64,000 bases of DNA. Source: Actinostola sp. cb2023. Lineage: Eukaryota > Cnidaria > Anthozoa > Actiniaria > Actinostolidae. Numbering within the stretch: position 1 is the first letter of the stretch; each line of letters starts with the position of its first letter. The translations under genes and the position numbers were made by a program. The stretch is from the NCBI GenBank assembly GCA_033675265.1, contig JAUJYZ010001528.1, forward strand, positions 1-64,000, written 5' to 3'. This document shows positions 32,165 to 35,100 of this stretch, piece by piece. The notes below the pieces were generated by a model. That model had not been told where the DNA came from, made no database searches, and saw only the letters and a program-made list of their open reading frames with translations.

Positions 32165-35100
32165 CTACTTCTTTTTCTTCCCACTTTTCTTTCCCTTTTT
32201 TCCTTTCTTTCCCTTCTTATCTCCGCCTTCTTCGTCACCAGCTGCAGCTTTCGCTCTCTTTTTACCCAGAGGGGTCTTAGTGTACCAAGTCTGTAATAGA
32301 AATAGTGATGTTACCGAAACATATCACACTGAATGTACGAATGACTAGTTAACTTGTGGATGAATAGAAAGCTGCCATCTTACCTTGAAGGCTTCCTCCT
32401 CTTCCTTGTATATAGGATCTATTCTTGCAAGTGGAGACACAAACTCGGCAGCCACTAGAGGTCGTTTGGATAGCTGGACAAACAAAATGTATACACTGAT
32501 CTATCAAGAACTTCAGAACTAACATCAGTTTGTAATAAATAAAAGGCTTGAAGGTTTAAAATGTGTTCAAAACGTTTTCGACCATTGGGTCATCATCAGT
32601 GAATGTGAACACATTTTAAACCTTCAAGCCTTTTATTTATTACAAATTTACAGCAATTATATTATGTATAACATCAGTTTATAACGACCCTTTCTCTAGC
32701 TAGCCCTCATTCTTTCCTTCCAGTCCTCCTCCCCTCCTTTACCACTCCCCCTTCCTTTTGAACCTTGCTTGCTTCCCTACATTGTATCTCTTCATTATTG
32801 AGTAGTCGATTGTTTACCTGTTGTATTCGTCTTTCTGATAAGACTTGTTGCAAGGCTTGCACCATGTGCCCTGGTGTATACCCATCGGTTATCTTGCACA
32901 GTGAGCTTAAATCCAACGACGCACTTATACGACCACCAAACTTGCAGGTTAGCGTTTTCCACAATACTGGCAAGTGTGTATGTAAGTGAACTTTGTTAGT
33001 ACGACTAGGGTGTGGCTAATCACCTGATAATAATGACATTCCAATACTTACAATATCTGGATGCGTAGTCTGGTCTGGGGATGAGGATGATCTTTTGGTA
33101 AGCACTACAGAAGAGTTTGAGTTCAGCATGTAAAAAAAGTTAAGGAAAATAGGACTGAATTCTGTCAATACATCTTGAATAGAGGCATCCTGCAACCCTC
33201 TCGAGAATCCACAAGTTGCCTGTGGCATGCTCAGTCTATTGCCACGGCATCAACGTGCTTACATGTACACTGCAGATTCACTAATTTAAACCACAACTCT
33301 ATCACATGTGGGTGCTCTATCACATGTGGATGCTCTATCACATGTGGGTGCTCTATCACGTGTGGGTGCTCTATCACATGTGGGTGCTCTATCACGTGTG
33401 GGTGCTCTATCACGTGTGGGTGCTCTATCACATGTGGGTGCTCTATCACATGTGGGTGCTCTATCACATGTGGGTGCTCTATCACATGTGGGTGCTCTAT
33501 CACATGTGGGTGCTCTATCACATGTGGGTGCTCTATCACATGTGGGTGCTCTATCACATGTGGGTGCTCTATCACGTGTGGGTGCTCTATCACGTGTGGG
33601 TGCTCTATCACATGCGAGAGAGTCGACTGCGCATGAGCACAAGTGTGTGGATCTACAAGAGACCGAGAAACAAGTTGTTCACGATTAAAAGGATATCAAA
33701 CGGCTGCCGTGAAGTACCAACAATTAGCACGCGGTCTTCTGGTTTGAGTGTTTTCAGTATCTTGGGCAGGTCTTTCTTCAGTCGCTTTGGGTCGGTCTGA
33801 AAACGTTGACAAAATTGGTACCACAATTACATTCAATTGTAACGTAATTACTTTATATACGCATCATTTTGTTCACTTTCTTGTGCTTGCGCTTATGCTT
33901 GCGTCGGACCTGTTTTCACATGACACAAGTTCTTATGCTTGCGTCGGACCTGTTTTCACATGACACAAGTTCTTATGCTTGCGTCGGACCTGTTTTCACA
34001 CGACACAAGTTCTTATGCTTGCGTCGCCAGTGTAAACACTGACCTTATCTGTTTTAGGGACTTTCTTGACGAAGGTTTTCTCAGAGTCACCAATAAAAAC
34101 CACTGAGGGCTGAAGCTGACGAGCAACCTGTCAAATATAGATAGCATACGTCATGACCACATGACCTCATAACACTATGACGTCATAAACCACGTGACTC
34201 ACCTTAAATACCATGTGCATCATCATAGCGAGGCCAGCTTTCCCAGGGTACTTTCCAGCTATGTTGGCCGCGGTCAAATCGAACAGGTTCGCCCCAGTCT
34301 CCGTACAAATACAATGAACTAGCATCTTTTTGCCAACACCACGTGGTCCCGCGAGTATTATGGACTTTGATGTGGGGAGATTTCTCGTGGACAGCCTGAG
34401 AGCCTGAGTGAAGAAAAGCAGATACTTGTATTTAGATCGCTATATCATTCATCATCATCATCATCATCCACACCACTCCTGCTAGCTACTACCATCATGT
34501 TTATCAATCATGAGCATCATGACTATCAACAATCACAATCAGTATCACAAGTCATCATCATAATCAACGACAATCATAATTATCATCATCACCATCATTA
34601 TTATTTACGCCTCTGACACACCATCATCATCATATCATTGACAACATAATCATCATCATCAATCATCATCCAATCATCGACAATTCTAATTATTATTTTG
34701 ACTGTGTTTCGTACCAAGAGGAAGGATGGCGAACTCCGTTACAACACGCCGTACATCTGACAGTGAGGGCATGGGTTCGATATTAGCCTGCCGAAGCGTG
34801 GTTCCTAAGTAGCTGTATTCTCCTGTAAAGTCACGTAGACGGACCTTGGGTACACGTACAAGTATGCCTTCTTGTACTAGCTCTTCGTATAATGACTCCA
34901 TGGTCCTACACACAGATAGAAAAGCAAATCAACAATATTCCCATTCATTTCTTCCCTTTCATTTAATGTGCTTTAGCCTATTAGAATGTAGCCCAAATCT
35001 ACCAGGCCTGGTCACCAGTGCTGTGACCACACTGCAATCCAGGAATCAGAATACTCGGACAAGATAAATATCGAGTTATTTTGGGACCTATTTCATTTTC

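Follow-up and report, generated by a model that had tools for sequence, protein, structure and literature searches.

In a 64,000-nucleotide (nt) stretch of DNA from the sea anemone Actinostola sp. cb2023 (contig JAUJYZ010001528.1, positions 1 to 64,000; the whole of this stretch is called the window), a minimal type I hammerhead ribozyme core lies on the minus strand at 32570-32599, in the centre of a perfect inverted repeat within an intron of the IQCA1 gene. We consider it probable that this hammerhead, of the type carried by Penelope-like elements (PLEs), is left over from a very small retrotransposon insertion, 133-137 nt in length and accompanied by a 12-16-nt target-site duplication. An earlier note on this DNA had raised the possibility that a tiny element carrying the hammerhead once ended in these arms and left the present remnant, and our analysis upholds this proposal in outline: the hammerhead is PLE-type, PLE fragments lie in the same window, a direct repeat brackets the hairpin, and the arms start from the predicted scissile bond.

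Hammerhead core, inverted repeat and predicted folds

The core was located by pattern, stem and fold scans and is described here in the standard hammerhead numbering scheme. On the minus strand, the 36-nt centre of the inverted repeat reads CATTCA-CTGATGA-T-GACC-CAAT-GGTC-GAAA-ACGTTT, and the 3' arm (TGAACAC...) follows directly. The conserved core bases CUGANGA and GAA are present and helix II is paired (GACC/GGUC, four pairs), the combination by which a type I hammerhead is recognised. Specifically, C3 lies at 32599, G12 at 32579, A15.1 at 32576, U16.1 at 32571, and U17 at 32570. The earlier note had claimed all core bases of a type I hammerhead, which holds with one correction, namely an extra U (T in the DNA) between A9 and helix II at 32592. 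The predicted scissile bond falls between 32570 and 32569, the latter being position 1.1. Hammerheads are cleaved behind an NUH triplet, and in the chosen register UUU (16.2, 16.1, and 17) stands before the cut. A loop-closed helix III is absent from this 32.6-kilobase (kb) core, its place being taken by the 6-nt palindrome AACGUU (32576-32571). The palindromic helix III suggested earlier stands as a palindrome longer than the ACGT then named, not as a hairpin.

The inverted repeat spans 118 nt in all (32529-32569/32606-32646), with 41/41 nt identical between the arms. Read in the ribozyme sense on the minus strand, an inverted-repeat search places the 5' arm at 32606-32646 and the 3' arm at 32529-32569, and at its inner edge the 3' arm begins exactly with the first base past the predicted scissile bond. 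The arms fold into a stem of ~40 base pairs (bp) with a z score of -14. In the catalytic register, helix I would consist of four pairs between TTCA of the 5' strand (32600-32603, minus strand, positions 2.4-2.1) and TGAA (32569-32566, positions 1.1-1.4); six nt of the 5' strand (32604-32609) would then bulge out before 37 further arm pairs. In the full-arm register, the arm takes TGAA and the core is left in an open loop, which together with helix II gives -59.3 kcal/mol. The minimum for the hairpin is -61.1 kcal/mol, and the competent fold reaches -53.8 kcal/mol, or -49.0 kcal/mol with A15.1-U16.1 added. The competent fold is thus less stable by 5.5 kcal/mol than the full-arm fold and by 7.3 kcal/mol than the minimum, figures that indicate a handicap and not inactivity, since nearest-neighbour energies leave out the tertiary core. 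The perfect ~40-nt helix I of the earlier note is confirmed as a pair of perfect 41-nt arms, but these arms do not form helix I in the catalytic register. Additionally, two copies co-fold at -131.9 kcal/mol versus -122.2 kcal/mol for twice the monomer minimum, and the palindrome could permit better cutting as a dimer.

The hairpin alone is not rare here, since perfect inverted repeats 28 nt or longer, spaced by up to 300 nt, number 7 in the window, this one among them; there are also 41 inverted-repeat pairs of 24 nt or more within 2 kb. The window also contains two long inverted repeats with 98% complementary arms, one at 58176-58582 (197-nt arms, 13 nt between) and the other at 22819-23650 (357-nt arms, 118 nt between).

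The full motif was sought with a scan that combined CTGANGA, a helix II of at least 4 pairs, GAAA, a 4- or 6-nt palindrome for helix III, H17, and at least 4 helix I pairs, criteria that were set post hoc with the motifs already known. Such a full minimal hammerhead occurs 3 times in the window, on both strands, versus 0 in 2000 simulated 64-kb strands (order-2 Markov, 128 Mb). The core with helix II only is found 36 times in the same simulation and 3 times in the window, again on both strands. A full hammerhead by chance is therefore very unlikely. Two further matches in the window were rejected as chance: a loose-script match at 51250 (minus strand), whose 4-pair stem closes a long loop that lacks structure, and a pattern match at 60226 (plus strand), which failed the stem test.

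The extra base after A9 is natural, since the pattern CTGATGA-N-GACC-N(3-6)-GGTC-GAAA matches 46 stretches in viral contigs, versus 0 for a scrambled core with the same stem. By script, 11 of these matches have a type I/II layout, 30 are type III and 5 are neither, with 41/46 complete, and the extra base is T in 43/46 and A in 3/46. The covariance-model check suggested earlier returned no Rfam hammerhead match at 32.5 kb, either at gathering scores or at E values up to 10. This outcome decides nothing, because the controls failed as well: at gathering scores, 0/15 extended-core viral loci were matched (15 of the 46 tested) and only 1/15 canonical-core loci (15 of the 80 listed tested), the single match being Hammerhead_1 in L066. 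In other words, 15/15 extended-core and 14/15 canonical-core controls were missed too. At E values up to 10, Rfam also missed the window's PLE hammerhead and one viral locus. The Rfam models used miss much of this hammerhead class, and extended-core hammerheads are likely a gap in them. Separately, a Twister-P5 match (48.4 bits) was seen at L083:1199-1253 (minus strand), on a viral contig where the canonical hammerhead pattern is matched as well.

The IQCA1 intron, Penelope-like elements and candidate marks of insertion

The hairpin is housed in a 344-nt intron of phase 0 with GT...AG ends (32474-32817, minus strand), in which 171 nt precede it and 55 nt come after it. The intron is defined by the splice-joined translation, which aligns gap-free across 32474-32817 to residues 722-792 of the IQCA1 chain 9fqr_Ok (E value 3.8e-19). 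The last two exons, namely the penultimate exon (32384-32473, minus strand) and the last coding exon with the stop (32165-32290, minus strand), align to the C terminus of 9fqr_Ok (E value 3.1e-17). The core is in sense because IQCA1 lies on the minus strand, like the core, and the exon alignments bear out the earlier statement that the hammerhead is sense-oriented in an IQCA1 intron. On the minus-strand side of IQCA1, a tandem array at ~37600-39700 is seen as a repeating reading-frame pattern.

Two identical PLE hammerheads with the core CTGATGA-A-GACTAG..CTAGTC-GAAA were found in the window, one at 20595-20623 (plus strand) and the other at 10291-10319 (minus strand). The stop codon before each one (at 20489 and 10425, respectively) ends 106 nt ahead of C3. 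Both carry the extra base A after A9, the palindrome ATAT for helix III, and a helix I of TGCAC/GTGCA. The PLE 3' ends at 10230-10709 (minus strand) and 20205-20684 (plus strand) are 100% identical over 480 nt, and each comprises a GIY-YIG-coding part, the stop and the hammerhead. The reading frame at 10425-10763 (minus strand) contains a GIY-YIG endonuclease domain (PF01541, E value 2e-07). The last part of the frame at 20.0-20.5 kb is the same protein as that of the 10.4-10.8-kb frame, while its first part is foreign; as submitted, the frame has no Pfam match. An opposite-strand frame crosses the foreign upstream part of the 20.2-kb copy. Additionally, a reverse-transcriptase-like frame at 15530-16810 (minus strand) matches RVT_1 with an E value of 1.4e-05, below the Pfam cut-off, and is probably another PLE piece. 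Since two identical minimal hammerheads stand behind GIY-YIG-type frames in this window, PLEs form the context of the 32.6-kb hammerhead. Within one base of register, the sequence 5' of the 32.6-kb core (TCACATTCAC) and its counterpart in the PLE copies (TCACATGCAC) agree at 9/10 bases. In a test that was chosen post hoc, agreement of 9/10 was reached by 22/20000 random window pairs and by 0/46 viral cores.

A direct-repeat search revealed a candidate target-site duplication around the hairpin, with the left copy TAACATCAGTTT at 32520-32531 and the right copy of the same sequence at 32669-32680 (both plus strand). The two copies are exact over 12 nt and identical at 15/16 nt if extended to 32535 and 32684. 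Between the arm and the right copy lies a 22-nt one-sided extension (32647-32668, minus strand), a possible tail or filler by analogy with PMC3846280. A whole-window control was swamped by tandem repeats and was replaced by one outside them. In that control, 32/3000 pairs of the same geometry reach 12 exact nt and 7/3000 reach a 16-mer with no more than 1 mismatch. Unrelated pairs reach 12 exact nt in 5/3000 cases and shuffled flanks in 0/2000. A target-site duplication is likely, but not proven. If it is real, the sequence would imply an insert of 133-137 nt, an earlier intron of about 195 nt, and a 22-nt extension on one side only.

Origin of the hairpin and its bearing on IQCA1

Two routes by which a PLE insertion could acquire this geometry may be envisaged. 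In the first, a PLE complementary DNA (cDNA) would be copied through the hammerhead, its 3' end would snap back by pairing TTCA with TGAA as in helix I, and the ~40 nt that follow the cut site would then be copied in inverted orientation. In the second, both target ends would be primed separately, and one cDNA would run off at the 5' end of the ribozyme-cut RNA. The start of the repeat at the scissile bond fits both, because either fold-back or run-off would yield that edge. In Anolis, a PLE protein cleaves both strands of its target and extends them (PMC11167929). We advance only tentatively, and at a probability well short of even, the general proposition that the hammerhead fold itself primes PLE cDNAs by snap-back, or that these cDNAs run off where the ribozyme has cut the RNA, the present locus being a minimal product of this process or a member of a ~135-nt hammerhead-hairpin family that moves in this way. 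If true, such a step would help explain the frequent inverted ends of PLE inserts, and the hammerhead would serve integration and not RNA processing only.

Several observations weigh against a PLE insertion formed in this manner. No PLE coding sequence or pseudo-long terminal repeat (pLTR) adjoins the 32.6-kb hammerhead, and the nearest PLE frame ends at 20489, ~12 kb off; because such an attachment is missing, we infer the PLE origin of this copy, like the fold-back or run-off step, and do not assign it. The left copy of the direct repeat overlaps the hairpin arm, and with tandem repeats kept in the control, 344/1500 pairs reach 12 nt. BLAST searches of the window with the core, the arm and the 400-nt locus return the locus itself only, including the arm against its partner arm. 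A second copy is likewise absent from the viral and prokaryote collections. Exact patterns of the core with ACG behind it, of the arm with the core, and of the window's PLE hammerhead matched 0 viral contigs, and those of a core pattern and of the arm matched 0 prokaryote contigs. The missing copies in these collections say little, because the collections are not animal. With respect to mechanism, hammerhead mutants of the Anolis PLE left insertion unchanged, no RNA-seq reads started or ended at the cut site, and cleavage required the PLE protein (PMC11167929). These mutant, read-end and protein-dependence results disfavour run-off, and fold-back is favoured over it. The rotifer paper explains head-to-head inserts by self-priming, with an antisense strand as template, and not by fold-back of cDNA at a hammerhead (PMC3846280).

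The alternative that survives best is that the locus belongs to a non-autonomous PLE derivative present in multiple copies, a mobile ~135-nt hairpin made of inverted ends and a hammerhead, with the long helix present by design. It shares its anatomy with the remnant of a single small insertion, and the 41/41 identity of the arms would fit a young or maintained unit. The single copy in the 64-kb window speaks against it, as do the 0 copies in the viral and prokaryote collections, the latter with little weight for an animal genome. We judge this alternative unlikely, if still worth attention. A foldback element or miniature inverted-repeat transposable element of DNA-transposon type, with the hammerhead in its centre by chance or capture, draws on the frequency of inverted repeats in the window, including the 7 perfect ones noted above. 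However, no short duplication is found at the outer arm edges (a TA within the arms would be self-complementary and may still be such a duplication), the inner edge lies at the scissile bond, and a chance full hammerhead is very unlikely, so that we regard this origin as quite improbable.

A host-adopted intronic ribozyme that cuts the IQCA1 pre-mRNA and regulates its splicing would be comparable to the conserved intronic hammerheads described in amniotes (PMC6155905), and both the sense orientation in the intron and the intact core bases accord with it. The fold energies and the geometry argue the other way: the competent fold is the less stable one by the margins given above, there is no helix III hairpin, and the ends would be held by ~37 bp after a cut. 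For these reasons, the suggestion in the earlier note that the hammerhead may cut the IQCA1 pre-mRNA receives no support, and adoption by the host is very improbable. By modelling, strong cutting of the pre-mRNA is unlikely; most likely, the long hairpin holds the core in the non-catalytic register in the transcript, and poor cutting in cis is to be expected. After any cut, the ends would remain paired, and ligation or splicing could continue with little effect on IQCA1 splicing. A textbook-looking core in a perfect hairpin, in short, need not be an active host ribozyme. Finally, a source of small RNAs, either hairpin RNA or microRNA (miRNA)-like, in which the hammerhead is irrelevant, is scarcely credible: the long stem with its low z score and many weak Rfam miRNA-family matches (best 60.2 bits) would suit it, but all of these matches fall under gathering scores (best 60.2 vs 211), as any long perfect hairpin yields, and the core is left unexplained. 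An miRNA precursor was accordingly rejected, with 0 Rfam miRNA families at gathering scores.

Other features of the window and comparison with known systems

Elsewhere in the window, the region at ~40000-48500 contains a long run of minisatellite-like repeats with repeated minus-strand reading frames; its GC skew is strong, with values of -0.46 to -0.49 over 40-48 kb. A single-exon rhodopsin-type receptor frame lies at 56450-57424 on the plus strand (7tm_1, E value 2.2e-26). Its closest relatives have 70-81% identity, a Nematostella vectensis protein has 52%, and two Pocillopora proteins and one Schistocerca protein are also matched; these relatives make an anthozoan source likely. A piece of a SpoU-type RNA methylase is found at 62129-62476 on the minus strand (E value 6.6e-20).

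Minimal type I hammerheads are dispersed in animal genomes and occur in PLEs and Terminons (PMC7761336, PMC7229834), a single coral carrying over 6000 type I motifs of either minimal or canonical form (PMC7229834, PMC7761336), and minimal PLE hammerheads are likewise devoid of a helix III loop (PMC6155905, PMC7761336). The 32.6-kb hammerhead resembles those of PLEs and Terminons in its type, in the lack of a helix III hairpin, in its dimer-permitting palindrome, and in its place among hammerheads dispersed in animal non-coding DNA; the window's own PLE hammerheads likewise carry the extra base after A9, and their 5' flank is similar. Unlike PLE and Terminon hammerheads, it is accompanied by neither PLE coding sequence nor tandem pLTR, and it sits in a perfect 41-nt inverted repeat whose inner edge lies at the predicted cut site.

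The Pen2 and Pen3 elements of Adineta vaga are described with inverted pLTRs, junction palindromes, an optional one-sided tail, and 8-10-bp duplications (PMC3846280). The present locus matches such Penelope inserts in its inverted ends and a palindrome at the inverted junction, and may match them in a possible one-sided tail and a candidate short target duplication. It differs from them in its total size of ~135 nt, in arms of 41 nt compared with about 180-220 bp, in a candidate duplication of 12-16 nt compared with 8-10 (PMC3846280), and in having the hammerhead as the sole content between the arms. Similar to non-LTR (long terminal repeat) retrozymes, it is a small non-coding unit of an animal genome that bears a type I hammerhead (PMC7229834); whereas those elements consist of tandem units of about 150-450 bp, each with a type I hammerhead, it is a single hairpin with no tandem partner in the window. 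The amniote RECK and CTCL hammerheads are likewise type I, intronic and in sense (PMC6155905), but they are conserved across species, and the 32.6-kb fold is handicapped.

The titles, abstract openings and passages surveyed, among which two main PLE-hammerhead papers are not included, describe no hammerhead at the centre of an inverted repeat whose edge lies at its cut site. A review calls the role of minimal hammerheads in PLEs a mystery (PMC7761336). By structure, the ribozyme itself is of a known kind, minimal type I, while its framing by a hairpin that begins at the cut site appears, within that survey, to be new. An insert with its inverted repeat set against the predicted cut site points to a concrete and testable link between the geometry of the ribozyme and the inverted inserts of PLEs.
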